The notes below the pieces were generated by a model. It ran no database searches and had not been told where the DNA came from. It was given only the letters and a program-made list of their open reading frames with translations. A stretch of 42,195 bases of DNA from a virus, in the IMG/VR virus record IMGVR_UViG_3300021371_000037, positions 1 through 42,195 of that record; one strand, given 5' to 3'. Numbering within the stretch: position 1 is the first letter of the stretch; each line of letters begins with the position of its first letter. The translations under genes and the position numbers were made by a program. Positions 929 to 32,342 of the stretch are shown here, piece by piece.

Positions 929-1177
929 ATGAATCCATACAAAAATAAAGGTAATATAAGAACGTTTTCGAAAGATGTAAATAAACTAGAACTAGTTTGG
1001 CATCAAGACGCTGAAGATAGAGATATCGAAGTATTAGAAGGTAAGGGATGGGAATTACAAATGGATAATGAATTGCCCTTTGAATTAGTAAAGGGAGATC
1101 GTATATTTATAACAGAAGGTAGAATACACCGAATATTAAAAGGTACAACCGATTTAAAAATTAGAATAAATGAATAA
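929..1177 (+). CDS. Small cupin-like conserved phage protein
   Basis: This is an 82-residue protein starting one base after the upstream stop. The ELVWHQDAEDRDIEVLEGKG stretch, followed by LPFELVKGDRIFI and IHRILKGTTDL, looks like the short beta-strand and turn pattern of a small cupin fold. Similar small proteins occur in marine T4-like phages next to structural genes. Two histidines (in VWH and IHR) could bind metal, but a complete cupin metal site cannot be shown. Its last eight bases overlap the start of the next gene, which suggests translational coupling. The enzymatic role is unknown. Confidence 0.55.
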   Translation: MNPYKNKGNIRTFSKDVNKLELVWHQDAEDRDIEVLEGKGWELQMDNELPFELVKGDRIFITEGRIHRILKGTTDLKIRINE

Positions 1178-1490
1178 CTTTGATTTAAAAAAATATTTAG
1201 CTGAAGGAAGGCTATTTAAAGAAGGAATTGACCCAAATTCCGAAATTGCTGATTATGTAGAAGCAATGTTTAATGACTCTGTAGTAGAAAAAGAAGGATT
1301 TCAATCTGATATTTGGACAAAAGCAGAATATGCTGCTACTTCAAGAGGTGAAGGATCTGTATTTATGGATTTAGCTAAACATTTAAATTCAGTAGGTGGT
1401 AAAGATGTACTAGAAGGCAACCCAGACATTCATTTAGAATTATTATCTAATGGTGATATTAAATGGAGTGCTGATGTAACATTTGATTAA
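1170..1490 (+). CDS. Short protein with capsid-targeting-like N-terminal leader (copy 1)
   Basis: This is a 106-residue acidic protein. Its first 16 residues, NNFDLKKYLAEGRLFKE after Met, are almost identical to those of the next gene, while the rest is unrelated. The LAE/G step fits the T4 prohead protease (gp21) cleavage rule, (L/I)-x-E. The leader resembles the capsid-targeting sequence of T4 internal head proteins, recalled as beginning with a MKTYQEFIAEA-type peptide. It may therefore be an internal protein packed in the prohead and trimmed after Glu. The start overlaps the previous gene by eight bases. The remaining sequence has no family I recognise. Confidence 0.6.
   Translation: MNNFDLKKYLAEGRLFKEGIDPNSEIADYVEAMFNDSVVEKEGFQSDIWTKAEYAATSRGEGSVFMDLAKHLNSVGGKDVLEGNPDIHLELLSNGDIKWSADVTFD
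1174..1207 (+). repeat. 34-bp direct repeat coding the shared leader, copy 1
   Basis: These 34 bases are identical to 1507-1540. They encode the FDLKKYLAEG leader of the first short protein. Confidence 0.9.
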
Positions 1491-1502: not shown

Positions 1503-1811
1503 ATGGATAACTTTGATTTAAAAAAATATTTAGCTGAAGGTCGTTTATTAAAAGAAGACGTTGAAAAAATAAGCAACGAAGAATTTACTATCGTTTATGA
1601 TGCTGACGATATGACAGATTATAAAGTATATAATAGATTACTTTCAGATAAAGAAGCAGATGCAGCAGAAGAAGATTTTAAAGTCCTAGATGATGAAATA
1701 GAAACATTTGTTTTAGATTCTGAAACACCAGCTAGCGAAATTTTAGATTATGCTTCTTCACAAGAAGAATTAGAAGATTACGGTTTAAGTAAATATTGGA
1801 AATTTAAATAA
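1503..1811 (+). CDS. Short protein with capsid-targeting-like N-terminal leader (copy 2)
   Basis: This is a 102-residue, strongly acidic protein. Its leader, DNFDLKKYLAEGRLLKE, matches the previous gene, and the DNA coding for the leader is a perfect 34-base direct repeat (1174-1207 and 1507-1540). After the leader the two proteins diverge completely. The body (EEFTIVYDADDMTDYKVYNR...) looks like a small alpha/beta domain of unknown function. A modular tag on unrelated short proteins fits capsid-packaged internal proteins. Its stop is followed immediately by the cysteine-rich micro-ORF. Confidence 0.6.
   Translation: MDNFDLKKYLAEGRLLKEDVEKISNEEFTIVYDADDMTDYKVYNRLLSDKEADAAEEDFKVLDDEIETFVLDSETPASEILDYASSQEELEDYGLSKYWKFK
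1507..1540 (+). repeat. 34-bp direct repeat coding the shared leader, copy 2
   Basis: This is the second perfect copy of the repeat at 1174-1207, in the same position and frame within the next gene. Confidence 0.9.
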
Positions 1812-1812
1812 T

Positions 1813-1878
1813 ATGAAATGTAATTGTAAAATATGTAATTGTGGAACATCATGTGATTGTACATGCTGCGGTTGCTAA
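1813..1878 (+). CDS. 21-residue cysteine-rich micro-protein, metallothionein-like
   Basis: This short ORF starts one base after the preceding stop and encodes 21 residues, nine of them cysteine (positions 3, 5, 8, 10, 14, 16, 18, 19, 21). They are arranged as CNC, CNC, CDC and CTCCGC, which is the Cys-x-Cys spacing of metallothioneins. There are no aromatic residues and two lysines. If translated it would be a very small metal-binding peptide (Zn, Cu or Cd), acting in the cytoplasm or carried in the head with its neighbours. A chance ORF with 43% Cys in such AT-rich DNA is unlikely. Expression is not shown by the sequence. Confidence 0.6.
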   Translation: MKCNCKICNCGTSCDCTCCGC

Positions 1879-1892
1879 ATTAAAAACATACA

Positions 1893-1918
1893 GGATAGAT
1901 TCATAGCCTATCCGCTTT
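1893..1918 (+). other. Weak hairpin with short T run
   Basis: GGATAG (1893-1898) pairs with CTATCC (1908-1913) around a nine-base loop and is followed by GCTTTT. It may help end the upstream operon, but the stem is short. Confidence 0.3.
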
Positions 1919-1943: not shown

Positions 1944-1970
1944 TGTGGCCTCCGTTTGGAGGCCACATTT
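1944..1970 (+). terminator. Hairpin terminator after the leader and micro-ORF genes
   Basis: TGTGGCCTCC (1944-1953) pairs perfectly with GGAGGCCACA (1958-1967) around a GTTT loop. It is the most GC-rich spot in the neighbourhood and is followed by a weak T tract. The loop also carries the TTTG of the following promoter, so the two elements overlap. Confidence 0.6.
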
Positions 1971-2009: not shown

Positions 2010-3299
2010 ATGAGTAAAAACATAGTAATGATTGGAGCAGGTGTAGCAAATGTAAATGCTGCTACTAAGCTAGTTGATAATGGATTTAAAGGTAAAATCA
2101 CTATTATTGATATGGGTAAAGACCCATATTTAAGACCATATGAAGAGGTAATGACAGGTTTCCTAGGAGCAGGAGGTTGGTCTGATGGTAAATTAACTTA
2201 CCACACTTCAATTGGAGGGCAATTATCTAAATATTGTGGTGAAGAAAAAGCGATGGAATTATTTGATCAGGTGATAGATAATTTTAAACGTTTCCACCCT
2301 AAACCAGAGGAAGTACAATGTTCAAATCCAGTAGCAGAACCAGAATTTATTAAACCATATTTTGGATTAAGATTATTTCCAGTATGGCACGTTGGTACAG
2401 ATTATTTACATGAAATAGGTAAAAATTGGTATGATTTCTTAGTTGATGGTGGTGTTGAATTTATTTGGGAAACTAAAGTAACAGATATCGATTTTGAAGA
2501 TCAAATTGTATCTATAGGAGCAGTAGATGAAATGAAATATGATGAACTTATATTTGGTGTAGGTAAATCAGGTATTGACTTTGGTAAGGTATTAGCTGAA
2601 AAATATGATTTACCAACTGAACCTAAACCAGTACAAATAGGTGTTAGATTTGAAGCACCACAAAAACACTTCCAAAAATTAATTGATGTAAGCTATGATT
2701 TCAAATTGTATCGTAAATTCAAAGACAAAGGAGTATCATTACGTTCATTCTGTACAAACAACAACGCAGCTTATGTTGCCGTTGAGGAAACGTATGGAGA
2801 TCATTCGTACAATGGACACGCTAAAAAAGATGAAGCATTCCGAAATGACATGACCAATTTTGGTATTCTAATGGAAGTTCAAGGTATTGATAAACCATTT
2901 GATTGGTCTAGAGATGTAGTTAAAAAATTACAGATAGATGGTACAGGATTATATTATAGTCCAAGTAGAAAACCATCAACAACATCTGAAGGTATAAATG
3001 TATCAGCTATCCAAGTAGATACATTACATAAAATATCAAAAGCAATGCAACCCTACTTTATGTATGTGTATGATTTTATTGAAGACATGAAAAAAGTTTT
3101 CCCAACACTTAAAGATGATTGGGGTATTTATGTACCTGAAGTAAAATATCTATCACCTGAGCCACTTGTCGATTATACCAATTTAGCACTCACTAAGTAT
3201 CCTAACGTACACTTCGTAGGAGATGCTTTATCAGCTAGAGGTATAACGGTAAGTGGTGCACAAGGGACATATGTTGCTGAATCACTTTTGGAGAATTAA
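2010..3299 (+). CDS. FAD-dependent oxidoreductase (COG2509-like)
   Basis: This is a 429-residue flavoprotein. It begins with a dinucleotide-binding beta-alpha-beta motif, IVMIGAGVANVNAATKL (GxGxxN, residues 8-13). It ends with a second FAD-contacting motif, VHFVGDALSARGITVSGAQG. The general pattern matches uncharacterised FAD/NAD-utilising dehydrogenases. The reaction and substrate cannot be read from sequence. There is no signal peptide, so it is cytoplasmic. It sits between a terminator and two other non-structural genes, with its own promoter, so it is an auxiliary metabolic gene rather than a virion gene. It is full length, with no frameshift. Confidence 0.8.
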   Translation: MSKNIVMIGAGVANVNAATKLVDNGFKGKITIIDMGKDPYLRPYEEVMTGFLGAGGWSDGKLTYHTSIGGQLSKYCGEEKAMELFDQVIDNFKRFHPKPEEVQCSNPVAEPEFIKPYFGLRLFPVWHVGTDYLHEIGKNWYDFLVDGGVEFIWETKVTDIDFEDQIVSIGAVDEMKYDELIFGVGKSGIDFGKVLAEKYDLPTEPKPVQIGVRFEAPQKHFQKLIDVSYDFKLYRKFKDKGVSLRSFCTNNNAAYVAVEETYGDHSYNGHAKKDEAFRNDMTNFGILMEVQGIDKPFDWSRDVVKKLQIDGTGLYYSPSRKPSTTSEGINVSAIQVDTLHKISKAMQPYFMYVYDFIEDMKKVFPTLKDDWGIYVPEVKYLSPEPLVDYTNLALTKYPNVHFVGDALSARGITVSGAQGTYVAESLLEN

Positions 3300-4160: not shown

Positions 4161-4718
4161 ATGAAAAAATCTGAATTAAAAAATTATATCAGAGAAAATA
4201 TCATCTCTACATTATCTGAAGATACTGATGCAGAAATTGAAAAAACTAAAGAATTAACTGCTGCTATTAAAGATTTAGAAGTAGCTAAAAAAGAAGCAGG
4301 CATTGAAGAAGATGCTACCCCAAAAGGTGAAGACTTCTTTTATGATTATTTAGATATTGGTATGTCTTATTTAGAAGGATTTGGTAAAAAACATTCTTTA
4401 GATGATAACCAGTTAGAAAAATTAGGTAAAAAAATAGTAGATCAATTATATAAAGGTGATGTTGGTAAGGCATATGATGCCATTGTTAAAAGAGGTTCGA
4501 TGAAAGAAAATGAAGATAAAGAACCATCTAAAGCAGATCTTAAAAAAACCAAAGGTTTAGCTAAAGCAAAAGAAGAATTAGCTTTATTAACTCGTGAAAT
4601 GAAATCATTAGCTAAAAAATATTCTAAAGCTGAAGGTGAAGAAAAAGAAAAACTAGTAGCTGATCTTAAGAAAAAAACAAAACTTAAAAAAGAATTAGAA
4701 AAGATTTTAGATAAATAA
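4161..4718 (+). CDS. Coiled-coil protein, possible internal head protein
   Basis: This is a 185-residue, Lys/Glu-rich, mostly helical protein. It opens with KKSELKNYIRENIISTLSED, an amphipathic N-terminus similar to leaders common on phage structural proteins, and LSE/D would fit a prohead-protease site. The last ~60 residues (KADLKKTKGLAKAKEELALL...KELEKILDK) form a strong coiled coil. The middle contains a short folded part (GEDFFYDYLDIGMSYLEGFGKK). It has its own late promoter, so it is expressed with virion genes. No family is recognised. Confidence 0.5.
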   Translation: MKKSELKNYIRENIISTLSEDTDAEIEKTKELTAAIKDLEVAKKEAGIEEDATPKGEDFFYDYLDIGMSYLEGFGKKHSLDDNQLEKLGKKIVDQLYKGDVGKAYDAIVKRGSMKENEDKEPSKADLKKTKGLAKAKEELALLTREMKSLAKKYSKAEGEEKEKLVADLKKKTKLKKELEKILDK

Positions 4719-21333: not shown

Positions 21334-22542
21334 ATGGCAAATTGGAAAAAGGTAGTAGTTAGTGGATCTAATGCAGAATTAGCAGAATTAACTTTATCAA
21401 ACTTATCACAACAGGCAACTGAAAACACTGTATTAACTATTAATACTGCTGGAGTAGTTGGAACAAGAGAAAATGCTGCAAGTTCTGGTACTTCAGGTAC
21501 TAGTGGATCAGATGGTTCATCCGGTTCTTCAGGAACAAGTGGTGTAGATGGTAACCCAGGTTCAAGTGGTTCTTCAGGAACAAGTGGAACTAGTGGATCA
21601 GATGGTTCAAGCGGTTCTTCAGGTACAAGTGGAGACTCTGGTTCAAGTGGTTCTAGTGGTACATCAGGAACTAGCGGTGATGATGGTGCTCCAGGTTCAA
21701 GTGGTTCTTCAGGAACAAGTGGAACTAGTGGATCAGATGGTTCAAGTGGTTCTTCAGGAACAAGTGGTGTAGATGGTGATGCTGGTTCAAGTGGTTCATC
21801 AGGAACTTCTGGTACAAGTGGTGCTGACGGTGACGCTGGTTCTTCAGGTTCTAGTGGTACATCAGGCTCAAGTGGTTCAGATGGTTCTTCAGGATCAAGT
21901 GGTACAAGTGGTTCTTCTGGTTCTTCAGGTACTTCAGGTACTAGTGGATCAGATGGTTCATCAGGTTCTAGTGGAACAAGTGGTTCTTCTGGATCAAGTG
22001 GAACATCAGGCTCATCAGGTTCTAGTGGAACAAGTGGTGTAATCAATGTTACTAATTCTGGTAATAACAGAGTATTAACAGATATTGATGGTGATAGTGC
22101 CAATGCTGAACAAAATATGACTTTTGTAAGTGATGGTGGTTCTACAGTAGGTGGTTTATTAACAGTAACCGGTGATGTAGTAATTAGTCATGATTTAACA
22201 GTACAAGGTACAGCATCTTTCCAAAATTCAGAAAATTTATTAGTAGCTGATAGATTTATCTTAATGGCTTCTGGTTCTACTTCTGTAGGAGATGGTGGTA
22301 TTGTAGTACAACAAGATACTCAAGATTATGGTGATGCTTTTGCATTTGATGGTTTATCAACTGAAAGATGGGGTGTAACAAGTTCTTTCCATGCTAGTGG
22401 ATCAGGATTTACACCAGATGCTTTCATGGCAACAGTAGTAGTAGGTTCAGGTGGAGCATTACCTTCTTCTGCCCCTACTAGATACCAAGCTGAAGGTAAT
22501 ATTTTTACATCAGCTTCAGGTGATATTTATATTTACTCTTAA
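21334..22542 (+). CDS. Collagen-like Gly-Ser/Thr-rich tail fibre protein (short paralogue)
   Basis: This is a 402-residue fibre protein. Residues 1-48 form an anchor domain (ANWKKVVVSGSNAELAELTL ... VGTRENAASSG) shared with the gene at 23083. Residues ~50-235 are an uninterrupted Gly-x-y tract built from GSSGTSG, GTSGSDG and GSSGSSG units with some GVDGNPG. The C-terminal ~165 residues are beta-rich (VINVTNSGNNRVL..., LTVTGDVVISHDLTVQGTASF) and may form the receptor-binding tip. The tract has almost no proline, so it is collagen-like in periodicity only. Its Ser/Thr density makes it a candidate glycosylation substrate. Confidence 0.8.
   Translation: MANWKKVVVSGSNAELAELTLSNLSQQATENTVLTINTAGVVGTRENAASSGTSGTSGSDGSSGSSGTSGVDGNPGSSGSSGTSGTSGSDGSSGSSGTSGDSGSSGSSGTSGTSGDDGAPGSSGSSGTSGTSGSDGSSGSSGTSGVDGDAGSSGSSGTSGTSGADGDAGSSGSSGTSGSSGSDGSSGSSGTSGSSGSSGTSGTSGSDGSSGSSGTSGSSGSSGTSGSSGSSGTSGVINVTNSGNNRVLTDIDGDSANAEQNMTFVSDGGSTVGGLLTVTGDVVISHDLTVQGTASFQNSENLLVADRFILMASGSTSVGDGGIVVQQDTQDYGDAFAFDGLSTERWGVTSSFHASGSGFTPDAFMATVVVGSGGALPSSAPTRYQAEGNIFTSASGDIYIYS
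21481..22035 (+). repeat. Gly-Ser-Ser/Thr coding repeat tract
   Basis: The nine-base periodic DNA coding for (G-S/T-S)n produces long spurious ORFs in other frames and on the opposite strand. Serine codons alternate between TCA/TCT and AGT, so the repeat is degenerate at DNA level. Confidence 0.9.
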
Positions 22543-23082: not shown

Positions 23083-26000
23083 ATGCCAAATTGGAAAAAA
23101 GTAATACTTAGTGGTAGTAATGCTGAGTTAAATGAACTTAAATTAACAGGTCTTTCAACCCAAGGATCTGAGAATACAACCCTTGTAATAAATAGTAGTG
23201 GTCAAGTAGGAACAAGAGAAAATGCTGCTTCCAGTGGTACTTCAGGTTCTTCAGGAAGTTCAGGTTCATCAGGTACATCAGGATCAAGTGGAAGTAGTGG
23301 TTCATCAGGTTCATCAGGTTCAAGTGGTACTTCTGGTTCATCAGGTTCAAGTGGCACTTCAGGTTCAAGTGGTTCAAATGGTAGTTCAGGGTCTTCAGGC
23401 TCATCTGGTTCTTCAGGAACAAGTGGTGTAGATGGTAACCCAGGCTCTAGTGGGTCTTCAGGTACATCGGGTTCATCAGGTTCATCAGGAAGTTCAGGTT
23501 CATCAGGTACATCAGGATCAAGTGGTTCAAGTGGTACTTCAGGTTCTAGTGGTAGTTCAGGTTCAAGTGGTTCATCTGGAACTTCGGGAGCAGCTACTAT
23601 TAATAATAATGTTGATACTTATTTATTAACAGCAACCGGAACTTCAGGTTTAATTGAAGGTGAAGCTAATTTAACATTTTCAGGATCAACTTTATTAACT
23701 GTATCAGGATCAGGTAGTACAATTTTAGATGTACAAGGATCCCAAGGTCAATTATTTTCAGTAACTGATGATTTAACTGGGATAGTATTTGCAGCATCAG
23801 ATATATCGGGTGTTCCTATTTTATCCGTAAGTGGTTCAGGTTTAACAATGATTGATGGGACTTTACAAATTCCAAATTTACCTAATATAACAACTAGTAA
23901 TGATGTATTAGTAATAGATTCAAATGGTAATATAGGATATGAAGCAAATGCTGCTTCTAGTGGTACTTCTGGTTCAAGTGGTTCATCAGGAAGTTCAGGT
24001 ACATCGGGTTCATCAGGAAGTTCAGGCTCATCCGGCTCTTCAGGTACATCAGGCTCATCCGGCTCTTCGGGTACATCAGGTTCATCTGGTTCTAATGGTT
24101 CAAGTGGCTCATCAGGTACTTCAGGAAATTCAGGTTCAAGTGGTTCTTCAGGTACAAGTGGTTCTTCAGGTTCAGATGGAACATCTGGTTCAAGTGGCTC
24201 ATCAGGTACTTCAGGTAATTCAGGCTCAAGTGGTTCAAGTGGTACTTCAGGTAATTCTGGTTCAAGTGGCTCTAGTGGCTCTTCAGGTTCATCAGGTACT
24301 TCAGGAAATTCAGGTTCAAGCGGTTCATCTGGAACTTCCGGTTCATCAGGTTCATCAGGTTCAAGTGGAAGTAGTGGCTCATCGGGTTCAAGTGGCTCAT
24401 CAGGTACTTCAGGACAAGATGGTAACTTTGGTGGTGCTACATTTGACTATACTTTTAGTACTTCTACTACAATTGCAAATCCAGGAGGAGGAAATATAAG
24501 ATTAAATAATTCAACCCAAACATCTGCAACAGTAGCTGCAATTAGTGAAACTGATGATGATGGAAATTCTGTTCAATCATTTTTTGAAACTATAGATTCA
24601 TCAACTTCAGCTGTAAAAGGTCATATGAGATTATCAGATAAAGATGATCCTTCAGATTTTATACTATTTGCCCTTGATGAATTGGTTGACCAAGGGGATT
24701 GGTGGCAATTTACAATAATATTTGAATCCCAAGGGGGTAATGCTTTAACAAACGGTGAAGATATTATAGCATCCTTTGTAACAACAGGTGATAGAGGAGA
24801 TGATGGTACATCAGGTTCATCTGGTAGTTCAGGTTCATCTGGTAGTTCAGGTTCATCTGGTAGCTCAGGCTCATCAGGTTCATCAGGTACATCAGGTAAC
24901 TCAGGCTCATCAGGTTCATCAGGTACATCAGGTAACTCAGGCTCATCTGGTTCTTCTGGAACAAGTGGTACCTCAGGTTCATCTGGTTCTTCAGGAACTT
25001 CAGGAACTTCAGGTAATTCTGGTTCAAGTGGCTCCAGTGGTTCATCAGGTTCTTCAGGTACATCAGGTTCATCAGGTTCATCAGGAACTTCGGGTAATTC
25101 TGGTTCTAGTGGTTCATCTGGTTCTAGTGGTTCATCTGGTACTAGTGGCTCTAGTGGCTCTAGTGGTACTTCAGGTCAAGATGGAGGTACAATAGCAAGA
25201 TTTAATGGATATGATAATGGTACTTTAAACACTACTAATTTTTCAACTAATGGGACAACAGCATTTTTAAAAGTTGATACTACACAATATGGTTTAGACC
25301 CATCAATTAATACAAACTATTATACATTTACTAATCAATCAGATACTATTACTATTGATAATGATGGTTATTATATAATTAATGCTAATATTGTATTTTT
25401 AGTATCAACTAGAAGCACATTAAGATCAATGATGGCAGCTTCTGTTTATATTAATGGTGTTAAACAAGAAGACACTTATGCTGATTCATACTCAAGGGGA
25501 TCTAGTTATAACGAGGATATAAACGTATCTGTTAAAGCTTATTATTTCTTATCAGCTAATGATACTATTAAAATAGAGCTTGAAACAGCTCATATGGATA
25601 CTAGTGGTAATGGTACTGTTGCAGTACAAGATGCTGTTTGGAATGTAGCATTTATAACTGGAACAGCAGCTGCAGCTGGTAATGATGGTTCATCAGGAAC
25701 AAGTGGTACATCAGGTTCATCAGGTTCATCAGGAACTTCGGGTAATTCTGGTTCTAGTGGTTCATCTGGTACTAGTGGCTCTAGTGGCTCTAGTGGTACT
25801 TCAGGTGGAACAGGCTCACCTGGTACTTCAGGAACTTCAGGCTCTTCAGGTTCATCAGGATCATCAGGTACTAGTGGTTCAAGTGGTTCTAGTGGTACAA
25901 GTGGCGGTACTGGTTCTCCAGGTACTTCAGGTACTTCAGGCTCTTCAGGCTCTTCAGGTTCATCAGGAACATCAGGCTCCTCAGGATCTTCAGGTACAAG

Positions 26001-27351
26001 TGGTGGTACCGGTTCCCCAGGTACTTCAGGTTCATCAGGTTCATCAGGTTCATCAGGTACTAGTGGTAATAGTGGTTCTTCAGGTTCTAGTGGTACTTCA
26101 GGTAACTCCGGTTCTTCAGGTTCATCAGGAACATCAGGTGGACAAGGTGACCCAGGTTCCCCAGGTACTTCAGGTTCATCCGGTTCAAGTGGTTCATCAG
26201 GTACATCAGGTTCATCAGGTTCATCAGGTACATCAGGTTCATCAGGTTCATCAGGTACTACTACTATTACAAATAATTCAAATAATAGAGTATTAACCGC
26301 TACTGGTACTTCAACAATTAATGGTGAATCTAATTTAACTTTTGATGGTACTTGTCTTGCAGGACCAATTTTACAATTTGGTTTTTGTCATACAATAGGA
26401 TCAGGATTTAGTTACCCTTCCGTTACAGGTGGAAGCCAAAATACATCATCAGCATCTTGTTCTACTATAGGTGGTGGATGTAGAAATTTTATTTGTGATA
26501 CTGGTGGTTCTTTTATAGGAGCGGGTGATAGAAATTGTATTTCTGGGTCAGGATGTTTTAATATAATTGGAGCTGGTCAAGTTAATAAAATTTGTGCACT
26601 TGGTAGTTGTACTGCTCAAGTAACAATGGCTGGAATTTTTGCTGGTGCGAATAATACAATAACTGGTGTAACAGGTGGTTGTGTGCATATTGGTTCTGGT
26701 TATTCAAACCTAATTTGTGGTAACTCTGCGTATTCAAGTATAGTTGGAGGATGGGACAATACTATTTGTTCTTCTCAAAAAGCCTCAATAGTAGCAGGAT
26801 GTAATAACTGTATTTGCAATAGTGCTAATGATAGTGTTATTTTAGGAGGGTATTCAAATTATATAAATGGTCAAACTTGTACTTTTGTTGCGGGTAATAA
26901 TATTAGTACTACAACTTCCAATTCTTTATATATGAATAATGGAATTGTTACTCAACACTTGCAAGTAGGAGGAACATCTCCTTGTAATACAACTACAGGT
27001 AGAATTGATGCAACAAATGATGTTGTAGCATATGCAACCTCAGATAGAAGATTAAAAGAAAATATTAAGCCTATTGATAGTGCTTTATGTAAAGTAATCG
27101 GAGTATCAGGTAATACATTTGATTGGAAAGAGTTAACTAAAGAAGAAAAACTAGTTATACATGGTAATGAAGGACCGGATGTTGGTGTAATTGCCCAAGA
27201 AATAGAAGAAGTATTACCTGAAGCAGTTACTACAAGAGAAAGTGGTTATAAAGCTGTTAATTATGAAAAAATTGTACCTTTATTAATTGAAGCAATTAAA
27301 GACTTAACAAATAAAGTAGAAAAATTAGAAACAAAAATAAATAAAAAATAA
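23083..27351 (+). CDS. Giant collagen-like tail fibre with C1q-like domain and S74 self-cleaving chaperone
   Basis: This is a 1422-residue fibre protein. Domains in order are: anchor 1-48 (shared with 21334); Gly-Ser-Ser/Thr tracts ~50-169, 290-445, 575-697 and 869-1057; beta spacers ~170-288, 446-573 (a sandwich-like unit, DYTFSTSTTIANPGGG... to FVTTGDRGDDG) and ~703-862. The last spacer looks like a C1q/TNF jelly roll (DTITIDNDGYYIINANIVF, SVYINGVKQ, SANDTIKIELE). Residues ~1060-1310 are a Cys-rich beta region with IGGG/IGAG-type turns. Residues ~1318-1422 are a peptidase S74 intramolecular chaperone, with predicted self-cleavage before Ser1320 in TSDRRLKENIKP. The C-terminus ends in a coiled coil that would trimerise the fibre. 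Confidence 0.9.
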   Translation: MPNWKKVILSGSNAELNELKLTGLSTQGSENTTLVINSSGQVGTRENAASSGTSGSSGSSGSSGTSGSSGSSGSSGSSGSSGTSGSSGSSGTSGSSGSNGSSGSSGSSGSSGTSGVDGNPGSSGSSGTSGSSGSSGSSGSSGTSGSSGSSGTSGSSGSSGSSGSSGTSGAATINNNVDTYLLTATGTSGLIEGEANLTFSGSTLLTVSGSGSTILDVQGSQGQLFSVTDDLTGIVFAASDISGVPILSVSGSGLTMIDGTLQIPNLPNITTSNDVLVIDSNGNIGYEANAASSGTSGSSGSSGSSGTSGSSGSSGSSGSSGTSGSSGSSGTSGSSGSNGSSGSSGTSGNSGSSGSSGTSGSSGSDGTSGSSGSSGTSGNSGSSGSSGTSGNSGSSGSSGSSGSSGTSGNSGSSGSSGTSGSSGSSGSSGSSGSSGSSGSSGTSGQDGNFGGATFDYTFSTSTTIANPGGGNIRLNNSTQTSATVAAISETDDDGNSVQSFFETIDSSTSAVKGHMRLSDKDDPSDFILFALDELVDQGDWWQFTIIFESQGGNALTNGEDIIASFVTTGDRGDDGTSGSSGSSGSSGSSGSSGSSGSSGSSGTSGNSGSSGSSGTSGNSGSSGSSGTSGTSGSSGSSGTSGTSGNSGSSGSSGSSGSSGTSGSSGSSGTSGNSGSSGSSGSSGSSGTSGSSGSSGTSGQDGGTIARFNGYDNGTLNTTNFSTNGTTAFLKVDTTQYGLDPSINTNYYTFTNQSDTITIDNDGYYIINANIVFLVSTRSTLRSMMAASVYINGVKQEDTYADSYSRGSSYNEDINVSVKAYYFLSANDTIKIELETAHMDTSGNGTVAVQDAVWNVAFITGTAAAAGNDGSSGTSGTSGSSGSSGTSGNSGSSGSSGTSGSSGSSGTSGGTGSPGTSGTSGSSGSSGSSGTSGSSGSSGTSGGTGSPGTSGTSGSSGSSGSSGTSGSSGSSGTSGGTGSPGTSGSSGSSGSSGTSGNSGSSGSSGTSGNSGSSGSSGTSGGQGDPGSPGTSGSSGSSGSSGTSGSSGSSGTSGSSGSSGTTTITNNSNNRVLTATGTSTINGESNLTFDGTCLAGPILQFGFCHTIGSGFSYPSVTGGSQNTSSASCSTIGGGCRNFICDTGGSFIGAGDRNCISGSGCFNIIGAGQVNKICALGSCTAQVTMAGIFAGANNTITGVTGGCVHIGSGYSNLICGNSAYSSIVGGWDNTICSSQKASIVAGCNNCICNSANDSVILGGYSNYINGQTCTFVAGNNISTTTSNSLYMNNGIVTQHLQVGGTSPCNTTTGRIDATNDVVAYATSDRRLKENIKPIDSALCKVIGVSGNTFDWKELTKEEKLVIHGNEGPDVGVIAQEIEEVLPEAVTTRESGYKAVNYEKIVPLLIEAIKDLTNKVEKLETKINKK
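23230..23589 (+). repeat. Gly-Ser-Ser/Thr tract 1 of the giant fibre
   Basis: It encodes about 120 residues of (G-S-S)/(G-T-S) units with single GSNG and GVDGNPG interruptions. Confidence 0.9.
23950..24420 (+). repeat. Gly-Ser-Ser/Thr tract 2 of the giant fibre
   Basis: It encodes about 155 residues, with recurrent GNSGSSGSSGTS units and one GSDGTSG. Confidence 0.9.
24806..25176 (+). repeat. Gly-Ser-Ser/Thr tract 3 of the giant fibre
   Basis: It encodes about 123 residues and shares long DNA-level identity with the start of tract 4 (GNSGSSGSS...GTSGSSG), consistent with duplication or recombination. Confidence 0.9.
25687..26255 (+). repeat. Gly-Ser-Ser/Thr tract 4 of the giant fibre
   Basis: It encodes about 189 residues. 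Three repeated GGTGSPGTSG units and one GGQGDPGSPGTSG are the only places with proline, giving short genuinely collagen-like patches. Confidence 0.9.
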
Positions 27352-28598: not shown

Positions 28599-31500
28599 AT
28601 GCCAGATAATACTAAAATTTTAGTTTCTAGTTGTTATATAGGAACAACAGGTTTTAATAATCATTCTCGTGATTTTTTTAGAAACCTTTCAAATTATTAT
28701 CCATTAAAAATTAGAAATTTTACGGTACCTAAATATTGGAATGGTTTAAAAGATGAACCTTTTAATGAAGAACCCTATATAACTGATTTAGATAAAAAAT
28801 TAATTTCAACTCAAACTACATTTGCTGATAATAAAAAATTACATGATACTAAAATTTATAAAAATTATCCTAATAATTTAGACCATAACTTAAACATAAT
28901 TTTAGCTGAAGTAAACCATCATTATTTTTATCAAACATATGAAGGACCTAAAATTGCTTATTTAGTGTGGGAAACAACTGAATATCCAAAACAATTTTAT
29001 AATAGAATAAAAGAATTTGACCAAATTTGGGTACCTTCCCAATGGCAAAAAGAATGTAATATAATCCAAGGTATTCCAGAAAAGAAAATTAAAGTAGTAC
29101 CTGAAGCTGTAGATGGAGAAGTATTTAAACCTAATAAAGAAGCAACATTACCTGAGTATGATGATAAAAGATTTAAATTTATTCATTTTGGAAGATGGGA
29201 TTATAGAAAATCAACTAAAGAAGTAATTGAAAGTTTTTTAAAAGAATTTGATAAAAATGAACCCGTAGATTTAATACTTTCTATTGATAATATATTTGCT
29301 AAAGATGGTTTTAAAACAACTGAAGAAAGATTAAAACATTATAAATTAATTGATCCTAGAATTAAAATCAAACATTTTCCTTCTCGAGAAGAATATATTA
29401 AATATTTACAAAAAGGGCATGTGTTTTTATCTTGTGCCCGTTCTGAAGGATGGAATTTACCTTTAATTGAAGCTATGGCTTGTGGTACTCCTTCTATTTA
29501 TTCTAATTGTAGTGCTCAACTAGAATTTGCTGAAGGAAAAGGATTACCTGTAAATGTTATAGGAACACAACCCGCTATTAGGGGAGAATATAGTACATAC
29601 TCTCAATCAGAATTATCAGGAGAATTTTACACCCCAGATTTTATCCATCTTAGAGAAGTAATGAGAGATGCTTATGAAAATTATGATTATCATAAAAAAG
29701 AAGCATTAAAAGAATCCAAAGATATTAGAGAAAAATTTACTTGGGATAATATGGCTAAAATAGCTAGTAAAGAAATAGACTCTTTTATGGCTAATCCTCC
29801 AAAAAATACAGTTGAAATTAGTTTTAATCAAGGAGCAAAAGTAGAAGTATTTGGTTCTAATAAAAATGAATATTTTGTAGAATTTATAAATGCTGATACT
29901 AATAAAGTAATACATTCTAGTACTATTAAAAATAATATGTGGACTAAATGTAATCTTGAATATTATATTCCCTGGATCATCAAAATAGATGGTGATGTAG
30001 TTCATACTTTTGATGTAACTAACCAAACAGTTAAGATATCCTTAGACTCAAAATCTGTAGGAGATACTTTAGCATGGACCCCACAAGTTTTAGAATTTCA
30101 AAAGAAACATAATTGTAAAGTTATAGTTAGTACTTTTCATAATGAATGGTTTGAAAATAATCCTGAATATAAAAACATTAAATTTGTTAAACCAGAGGAA
30201 TCTGTTAATTCATATGTACATTATAAAATAGGGTGGTTTAAAACTAATGGAAAATGGGATAAAGGTAAAAAAAATAAAAACCAAGTAAATACTATTCCTC
30301 TAATTCAAGCTGCTAGTGATGCTTTAGGATTGTCTTATAAAGAAATTAACTATGGTGTAGATTTTAAAATTGGGAAAAGACCTATTAAAGAAAAATATAT
30401 TTGTATTGGTCCTAAATCAACCTCAGGATTAAAAGAATGGCCCCATGACAGATGGAGAAGTTTAGCTAAAAAACTACATAAAAAGGGATATAAAATAGTT
30501 AATTTATCTTATGAAGGATTTTCTGGAACAAATATAATTAATAAAAAGAAACTTAATTGGGAAAAAACTTTTAATTATCTTTACCATGCTGATTTATTTA
30601 TAGGTTTAGGATCTGGTTTATCTTGGGCAAATTGGGCTTTAGACAAACCAACCTTAATGATTAATAATTTTATTCCTTTTGGTTATGAATTTACAAATAA
30701 ATTAACTAAAATAGAAAATAATACAGTATGTAATAATTGTTGGGTTAATAAAGATTTTACTTTTGATCCTGGTAATTGGGATTGGTGCCCTAAAAATGAA
30801 GGAACTCCAAAACAACATATATGTCAAAAATCTATTACAGTAGATCAAGTTTATTTAGAATGTTTAAATATATTAGAACCTAAAAACAATACAGATTTTG
30901 TTTGGGTAACAGGGGGTGATAAACCTTATTTATCTATGATAGAAGTTTTAGCTAAAAGTCTTTTAAAACATTCTAAACATAAATTACTTGTATATGGTTT
31001 TAATTGTGATCCCAAAATTAATTTACCTAATGTAATTAATAAAAGAATAGATTTTGATCCTAAACCAATAAGACATATCCCTAATGAATTTGATTTAATA
31101 GATAAAGATTATTCTTTATATTATGCTAAATATCTAACCAGTTTAGATTCTTTAAATACTGAATATCAAAATTTTGCTTGGATAGATGGTGATGCTTTTG
31201 TTACTGAACATATTGATAAATCTTTAAAGTATATTTCTAATTTAACAGATTATCCTTTATTTATGAGATATTTTGATGAAGATATGGTTCATTGGAGAAA
31301 ATATAAAAATATAAAATTAGAAGGACATTATGGGGCAGAAATATCACATATCTTAGATATTGAAAGAAACCCAAATAAAAATATTATAGCAACTGGTTTT
31401 TATTTTTATAATAAAGATTCAAAATCATTTTTCCAAAAATGTTTAGATTTAAACCAAAAATTAAATTTACAAAATTTACAAATATTTGCAGATGATAATG

Positions 31501-32342
31501 CCTTCTCAGAAGAAAGAATAACTAATGCTTTACTTTGGAAAGAAAATAAAACAAATCATTTACCTATTACATGGAATAATTATTATTCCCCTAAGGAAAA
31601 AGTTGTTGTAGATCAAAGTATATTAGATAAAGGGTTTGATATTATGTTTGATATAGCAAATAAACAACCTTATTTTGTACATGGACCGGACCCATCAGTT
31701 GTTTCTAAAAACAGTAAAACTCTGGATATAATGTACCAGGACTACCAATTAAAAAAATTAATGATAGTAGCTCATCCTGATGATGAATTGATATTTGGGG
31801 GTGCCGAATTAATAAAATATGGTCCTGAATATAAAGTTATTTGTCTTACCAATAAATCAAATAAAATTAGAAGTAAAGAATTTGAACAGGTAATGAAAAA
31901 ATTAAATGTAGGTTCTTGGGAAATTCTTGATCATAAAGACGATTTAAATAACCCTCCTGAAAAGTATAATATTGAATCAATATTACTAGGTAGACAATGG
32001 GAAAAAATAGTAACTCATAACCCTATAGGTGAATACGGACATCCACAACATAAAGCTATATTTAACTTTATTAAAGAATATATTGATAAAATTATTTTAG
32101 AAGATATATTATATGTATTTGGGAAATCTAATACTAAGTTAGATAAGAAAAACTTGAAAACTAAAAAAGAATTACTTACATTGTATAAATCTGAACAACC
32201 TATTATTAATCAGTTATTAAACAATAAGGGAAGTTGGTTTAAAAGTAGTAATAATAATACTAACTATATAGAACATGAGTCTATAAAAAAATATAATAAA
32301 AAAAAGGATAAAAATAATTATATAGCATGTTATGAAAAATAA
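28599..32342 (+). CDS. Four-domain glycosylation enzyme: GT4, TibC-like O-heptosyltransferase, GT-A transferase, PIG-L deacetylase
   Basis: This is a 1247-residue fusion. (1) Residues ~1-395 are a GT4-like GT-B enzyme with CARSEGWNLPLIEAMACGTP (Glu283 and Glu291, E-x7-E) and FIHFGRWDYRKS. (2) Residues ~399-757 match the bacterial autotransporter O-heptosyltransferase family (TibC/Aah). The matching features are SVGDTLAWTPQVLEFQKKHN, a GLGSGLSWANWALDKPT donor region, and a four-cysteine iron motif CNNCW...WCP...CQKSIT (Cys711, 714, 730, 742). (3) Residues ~764-1045 are a GT-A domain with WIDGDAF (Asp863, Asp865). (4) Residues ~1052-1230 are a PIG-L/LmbE zinc deacetylase with AHPDDE (His1059, Asp1061, Asp1062) and EYGHPQH (His1148, His1151). 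All motifs look intact. Confidence 0.85.
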   Translation: MPDNTKILVSSCYIGTTGFNNHSRDFFRNLSNYYPLKIRNFTVPKYWNGLKDEPFNEEPYITDLDKKLISTQTTFADNKKLHDTKIYKNYPNNLDHNLNIILAEVNHHYFYQTYEGPKIAYLVWETTEYPKQFYNRIKEFDQIWVPSQWQKECNIIQGIPEKKIKVVPEAVDGEVFKPNKEATLPEYDDKRFKFIHFGRWDYRKSTKEVIESFLKEFDKNEPVDLILSIDNIFAKDGFKTTEERLKHYKLIDPRIKIKHFPSREEYIKYLQKGHVFLSCARSEGWNLPLIEAMACGTPSIYSNCSAQLEFAEGKGLPVNVIGTQPAIRGEYSTYSQSELSGEFYTPDFIHLREVMRDAYENYDYHKKEALKESKDIREKFTWDNMAKIASKEIDSFMANPPKNTVEISFNQGAKVEVFGSNKNEYFVEFINADTNKVIHSSTIKNNMWTKCNLEYYIPWIIKIDGDVVHTFDVTNQTVKISLDSKSVGDTLAWTPQVLEFQKKHNCKVIVSTFHNEWFENNPEYKNIKFVKPEESVNSYVHYKIGWFKTNGKWDKGKKNKNQVNTIPLIQAASDALGLSYKEINYGVDFKIGKRPIKEKYICIGPKSTSGLKEWPHDRWRSLAKKLHKKGYKIVNLSYEGFSGTNIINKKKLNWEKTFNYLYHADLFIGLGSGLSWANWALDKPTLMINNFIPFGYEFTNKLTKIENNTVCNNCWVNKDFTFDPGNWDWCPKNEGTPKQHICQKSITVDQVYLECLNILEPKNNTDFVWVTGGDKPYLSMIEVLAKSLLKHSKHKLLVYGFNCDPKINLPNVINKRIDFDPKPIRHIPNEFDLIDKDYSLYYAKYLTSLDSLNTEYQNFAWIDGDAFVTEHIDKSLKYISNLTDYPLFMRYFDEDMVHWRKYKNIKLEGHYGAEISHILDIERNPNKNIIATGFYFYNKDSKSFFQKCLDLNQKLNLQNLQIFADDNAFSEERITNALLWKENKTNHLPITWNNYYSPKEKVVVDQSILDKGFDIMFDIANKQPYFVHGPDPSVVSKNSKTLDIMYQDYQLKKLMIVAHPDDELIFGGAELIKYGPEYKVICLTNKSNKIRSKEFEQVMKKLNVGSWEILDHKDDLNNPPEKYNIESILLGRQWEKIVTHNPIGEYGHPQHKAIFNFIKEYIDKIILEDILYVFGKSNTKLDKKNLKTKKELLTLYKSEQPIINQLLNNKGSWFKSSNNNTNYIEHESIKKYNKKKDKNNYIACYEK

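Follow-up and report, generated by a model that had tools for sequence, protein, structure and literature searches.

A conserved family of phage microproteins of about 21 residues with nine cysteines and a metallothionein-like composition

Can a reading frame of 21 codons, nine of which specify cysteine, be a gene of a phage, and what might its product do? The frame lies in a 42,195-nucleotide stretch of DNA analysed here as a whole (IMG/VR record IMGVR_UViG_3300021371_000037; hereafter the window). The window belongs to a T4-like myophage and encodes a gp20 portal, a gp21 prohead protease (Peptidase_S77), a gp23 major capsid protein, and sheath and tail-tube proteins. Its gp17 terminase has its best match in Flavobacterium phage immuto (61%), and this relationship points to a Bacteroidota host.

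Micro-gene in the window

The micro-ORF extends from an ATG to a TAA codon and specifies the peptide MKCNCKICNCGTSCDCTCCGC, in which nine of the 21 residues are cysteines with the spacing CxC-xx-CxC-xxx-CxC-x-CC-x-C. A single base separates its start from the stop of the preceding reading frame, and it is followed by a hairpin and then by a terminator-like hairpin with a run of Ts (Table 1). Reading of the ORFs confirms the original prediction of a clean, cysteine-rich frame placed one base past a stop codon and ending ahead of a terminator. The window (31% GC) was also simulated 200 times with a first-order Markov model; none of these copies gave an ORF of 15–41 residues with nine cysteines at a share of at least 40%, the maximum being seven cysteines.

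Table 1 Features of the window around the micro-gene
Feature	Position	Strand	Basis
Cupin-like protein, 82 aa	929..1177	+	Cupin_2, weak, E 0.052
106-aa protein with T4-like capsid-targeting leader MNNFDLKKYLAEG	1170..1490	+	Leader inferred from pattern
102-aa protein with leader MDNFDLKKYLAEG, gene immediately upstream of the micro-ORF (1 nt gap)	1503..1811	+	Leader pattern
Metallothionein-like microprotein MKCNCKICNCGTSCDCTCCGC, 21 aa	1813..1878, stop included	+	ORF reading and conserved family
Conserved RNA hairpin, invariant 9-nt loop ATTCATAGC, covarying stem, independent of the microprotein	1893..1913	+	Covariation
Second conserved hairpin, terminator-like (GTGGCCTCC...GGAGGCCAC, then Ts)	1944..1970	+	Fold and conservation
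FAD-dependent dehydrogenase, next gene downstream	2010..3299	+	Pyr_redox_2 / PHROG 12409

Conservation of the microprotein family

Relatives of the micro-gene were gathered from IMG/VR by a scan for the bare spacing of cysteine codons, by a stricter pattern, and by fetching loci through two neighbour genes, those of the FAD-dependent dehydrogenase and the cupin-like protein. At the nucleotide level, the family comprises at least 102 core sequences that differ from one another; they encode at least 90 different core peptides, with a total length of 20–23 residues. Every relative comes from a metagenomic contig. The common frame is M-x(0-3)-C-[ND]-C-xx-C-x-C-G-x-S-C-x-C-x-C-C-[ND]-C-stop. Throughout the at least 102 distinct sequences, the cysteine codons interchange between TGT and TGC only. 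Glycine occupies position 9 in 97 of 102 distinct core sequences, and serine or threonine position 11 in 100 of them. The other non-cysteine positions vary widely, mostly among N, D, K, E, T, S and G, with V or I also found at position 5. In all members except L091, which has one additional lysine past the last cysteine, the ATG stands 0–3 codons ahead of the first cysteine and the stop follows straight after the last. Two further variants depart from the common form: L249 has a spacer shorter by one residue and keeps all nine cysteines, and L070 encodes 36 residues with an additional N-terminal cysteine stretch and 13 cysteines overall.

Among the members found by pattern, the lack of cysteine losses is partly by construction, as the search fixes the register. 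The key test is therefore provided by the loci fetched through neighbour genes without that pattern. The micro-ORF is present in 11 of 80 loci fetched through the FAD gene and in 22 of 80 fetched through the cupin gene, and it has nine cysteines in every one of them. A scan of the neighbour-fetched loci for partial forms with 5–8 cysteines in register yielded none with 6–8. Loss of the cysteine codons or disruption of the frame in relatives had been named at the outset as the outcome that would overturn the prediction; the family keeps both cysteines and frame, and the finding stands. The same data bear on the idea that AT-rich sequence holds the cysteine codons by luck. The ORF is indeed short, and poly-cysteine frames of simple repeats exist elsewhere, but the synonymous-only change of cysteine codons in at least 102 distinct sequences, together with the set sampled through neighbour genes and the simulations, refutes a chance origin, to which we give next to no credence. 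Judged by its sequences, the microprotein is a conserved protein family that was previously uncatalogued.

Composition and putative function

The position table of the family contains few or no aromatic residues, almost no hydrophobic residues or histidines, and no hydrophobic core, and the microprotein has no signal peptide. A reduced thiolate peptide of the cytosol is therefore the natural reading. For nine thiolates in a CxC and CC arrangement in a reducing cytosol, binding of soft metal ions is the simplest interpretation. Small size, very high cysteine content, CxC motifs, scarcity of aromatic residues and the missing hydrophobic core are traits that these peptides of 20–23 residues and nine cysteines share with the broad class of metallothioneins, whose members hold d10 metals in thiolate clusters, as the phage peptides may do. 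They are metallothionein-like by composition; their similarity to known metallothioneins is insignificant and rests on cysteine content.

The β-domain of mammalian metallothionein, one part of a two-domain protein, has nine cysteines in about 30 residues and can hold three divalent metal ions or, in the case of Cu(I), about six. The phage peptide has the same number of cysteines but in a different spacing, and no homology is claimed. SmtA/BmtA (Pfam Metallothio_Pro) and MymT are small bacterial metal buffers, and the SmtA-type proteins have about 55 residues, a zinc-finger fold and histidine ligands. The N-terminal KCxCxxCxC of the phage peptide resembles SmtA; however, none of the 22 members searched matched NCBIfam or, at gathering level, Pfam, the bacterial metallothionein models included, which leaves the family outside the SmtA type. 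Profile searches led to no database entries other than plant proteins, which share a CxCGxxCxCxxC appearance with the phage peptide but have multiple domains. Two of the 22 members matched Metallothio_2 of Pfam insignificantly (best E 0.54), and the sole match in the PDB, wheat Ec metallothionein (2kak), is likewise insignificant (E 7.6); homology is not demonstrable, and the family is not assigned to the plant metallothioneins. The copper metallothioneins of the fungi Neurospora crassa and Agaricus bisporus, with 26 residues and seven cysteines in the arrangement X2-CXC-X5-CXC-X3-CXC-X2-C-X3, were once thought to be the shortest (PMC4755600). Like the phage peptide, they are very short, rich in CxC and devoid of a hydrophobic core, with cysteines making up about one third of the residues or more. 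Unlike them, the phage peptide has nine cysteines in 20–23 residues, another spacing and a terminal CxCCxC, and it does not belong to their group. What seems to set the family apart is that it fails the curated bacterial and plant profiles and has a spacing unlike that of the fungal 26-residue proteins.

We hypothesize, with a probability of about 60%, that the microprotein is a thiolate peptide of minimal size that resides in the cytosol, binds Zn(II) or Cu(I) and acts as an accessory metal or thiol buffer in infection. Judged from composition, intracellular buffering of Zn or Cu is the best-supported function. The peptide of 20–23 residues would be translated in the cytosol of the infected cell, along with an accessory gene set rich in capsid cargo. 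Its nine invariant cysteines may enclose a few clustered soft metal ions in the manner of the nine-cysteine metallothionein β-domain, with a putative load of roughly three ions in the case of Zn(II) and six in that of Cu(I). Zn, Cu and reactive thiol-seeking species could thereby be buffered or withheld during the breakdown of host proteins and the synthesis of phage proteins. Among metal-binding peptides that are genetically encoded, the microprotein would rank with the smallest. A capacity to bind metal would make it a phage-borne metallothionein family, one of the shortest encoded anywhere, and would suggest that marine T4-like phages control metals or thiols when they infect. In the literature searched, no phage metallothionein is described, which does not prove absence. 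Tentatively, and with less confidence than we place in the buffer itself, we propose that phage-specific minimal metallothioneins, among the shortest in any genome, circulate horizontally in T4-like phages as a metal-control module that would be advantageous in infection, for example through the capture of Zn or Cu that host proteins release on degradation, or by keeping these metals from metal-dependent defences.

Distribution of the family

The micro-ORF occurs once per record, on contigs of up to 210 kb; three matches in the record of L014 are a simple repeat and were not accepted as multiple copies. The pattern matched once in 84,980 prokaryotic species genomes, in a metagenome-assembled genome of Ruminococcus flavefaciens, and this match is a TGT/GGT repeat frame that was rejected as a member. 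The pattern is thus essentially missing from prokaryote genomes, which identifies the micro-gene as a phage gene. Five phage records that stem from isolates or are otherwise named, among them Flavobacterium phage immuto and Microcystis phage Mel-JY01, did not contain it, and a tblastn search of isolate phages with the 21-mer, a weak search because the query is short and of low complexity, returned nothing. The carriers are many uncultured T4-like phages whose hosts are probably marine Bacteroidota.

The family is not present in PHROGs. The original prediction also held that the micro-gene is too short for gene callers and easily overlooked. Standard callers would indeed pass over it, and none of the searched libraries of protein families contains it. 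A whole conserved family of about 21 residues can therefore go missing from the standard phage and bacterial family libraries.

Presence of the micro-ORF is patchy on a tree of the FAD protein, where it demands at least 15 changes, seven of them forced by the starred branches. Shuffled presence gives a mean of 17.8 changes versus the 15 observed, and 27 or 28 of 500 shuffles are as low, so that the distribution is close to random. The closest FAD relatives of the window among the matches listed (L122, L123 and L125, about 97%) are without the micro-ORF. Its patchy presence and its absence from near relatives characterize it as an accessory gene that has been gained and lost.

Gene neighbourhood

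In six or more genomic contexts, the micro-gene closes a run of co-directional genes or stands close to its end. It shares the strand of the upstream gene in 97 of 103 loci and that of the downstream gene in 102 of 105. The upstream gene usually overlaps it or stands within about 30 nt, with gaps to the upstream stop from -14 to more than 30 nt and all three frame relations; this variability rules out a fusion to, or a frameshift from, the upstream gene. In 25 of 108 family loci, the adjacent upstream gene encodes a homologue of the cupin-like protein. The cupin-like protein, which is common in these phages, contains the motifs HxDxEDR and GDRIFI...H. Neither metal-responsive regulation nor metal transporter genes were found near the microprotein loci.

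In the most frequent context (60 of 108 loci), the micro-gene precedes a block of FAD-dehydrogenase, kinase and terminase genes, with the FAD gene at most four genes downstream. This proximity, and the Pyr_redox_2 nucleotide-binding region of the FAD protein, could indicate that the peptide is a redox or thiol partner of the dehydrogenase, serving as a small dithiol carrier or substrate. However, the peptide is missing from 69 of 80 FAD loci, the available sequence, short in several cases, shows no FAD gene within four genes of the peptide in 48 of 108 loci, and CxC-rich peptides are unusual as dithiol carriers, which makes such a partnership improbable. Further contexts are ahead of a primase-like gene (15 of 108 loci), between gp23 with a CTS-like protein and the clamp loader (9 of 108), and several rarer ones. 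The frequent location among head and packaging genes (terminase, gp21/gp23 modules) might suggest a small structural Zn-binding piece of the virion or of a nucleic-acid complex, similar to a zinc knuckle. The peptide is nevertheless without the basic, aromatic and histidine residues of zinc knuckles, it has nine cysteines rather than four, and no partner gene is constant; we regard a structural role as no more probable than the redox partnership.

Genes with leaders resembling the T4 capsid-targeting sequence (CTS; pattern ending in [LIV]xE) are enriched near the micro-gene, reaching 31% at position -1 versus a background of 2.4%. In the window, a hypervariable island (1170-1811 and 4161-4718) consists of genes that have only an N-terminal leader in common (MDNFDLKKYLAEG, MKELxxFRQFLTEG, MKLSKIILE). 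By the resemblance of these leaders to T4 capsid-targeting sequences with LxE protease sites, the island genes are a candidate pool of injected internal proteins. In T4, the CTS directs internal proteins into the head, and these proteins are diverse anti-restriction factors with the CTS as their sole common part (PMC3012670; PMC9026906). The early suggestion that the microprotein carries metal in the head together with its leader-tagged neighbours is not supported. None of the at least 102 distinct members has a capsid-targeting leader, which in T4-type internal proteins ends in an LxE-type protease site; the tagged genes are frequent but not universal neighbours, and the peptide is not one of the T4-type capsid-targeted internal proteins.

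A fast-turnover accessory gene in an island of leader-tagged genes, whose T4 counterparts counteract restriction, could also encode a chelator for host takeover or counter-defence that withdraws Zn or Cu from one given metalloenzyme of the host, such as RNA polymerase, a nuclease or a defence protein. The analysis turned up no particular target or association, a leader is missing from the peptide itself, and a general buffer accounts for the same data. We consider a dedicated chelator unlikely, albeit less so than the redox and structural roles, and favour the general metal buffer.

RNA element downstream of the micro-gene

The region downstream of the micro-ORF folds with a z-score of -4.0 relative to dinucleotide shuffles. 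It contains an RNA element (1890-1985 of the window) that is composed of the loop hairpin, the terminator-like hairpin with a conserved CTGTGGC, and TTCGTATATT. The invariance of the loop is partly fixed by the search word. The 5-bp stem covaries: in 21 distinct hairpins, 105 of 105 stem cells are paired, with a mean of 72 and a maximum of 86 in shuffles. The element has no Rfam entry. In 106 of 113 loci, an FAD-dehydrogenase gene starts within 1.2 kb downstream of it.

This arrangement raises the alternative that the micro-ORF is an attenuator, in which ribosomes stalling at cysteine codons would control the downstream hairpin or terminator and the FAD gene, the peptide itself being irrelevant. 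In the FAD context, a mini-ORF rich in cysteine codons does stand just ahead of a conserved, terminator-like structured region, 97–137 nt ahead of the FAD gene in most loci where the two are direct neighbours. However, the element occurs without the mini-ORF in most loci, since only 6 of 94 element loci have it within 2 kb upstream, and the mini-ORF also occurs without the element: elsewhere the next gene adjoins it closely or overlaps it (gaps from -16 to about 11 nt), and no terminator lies between the two. It is placed behind coding genes and not at the start of an operon. The exact cysteine spacing is kept, as are Gly9, Ser11 and Asn/Asp, none of which an attenuator needs. The attenuator reading is largely refuted and, in our estimate, very improbable; the RNA element and the putative metal buffer appear to be neighbours independent of each other.

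A second cysteine-rich micro-ORF of 28 residues, MKEKIC..ICKITFNKVC[LI]GWC..KCC[KS], was observed in L213, L221, L238, L160, L192 and L405-L411. In several loci it occupies the same slot, about 100 nt ahead of the RNA element. The metallothionein-like ORF accompanies it in none of the seven loci examined.

Other genes of the window

Two proteins of 402 and 1422 residues, encoded at 21334-22542 and 23083-27351, contain very long repeats of the GSSGSSGTSG type, and the C-terminal part of the larger one looks like an intramolecular chaperone domain. A protein of 1247 residues (28599-32342) looks, in our own reading, like a fusion of glycosyltransferase-type domains with a C-terminal PIG-L-like deacetylase stretch.
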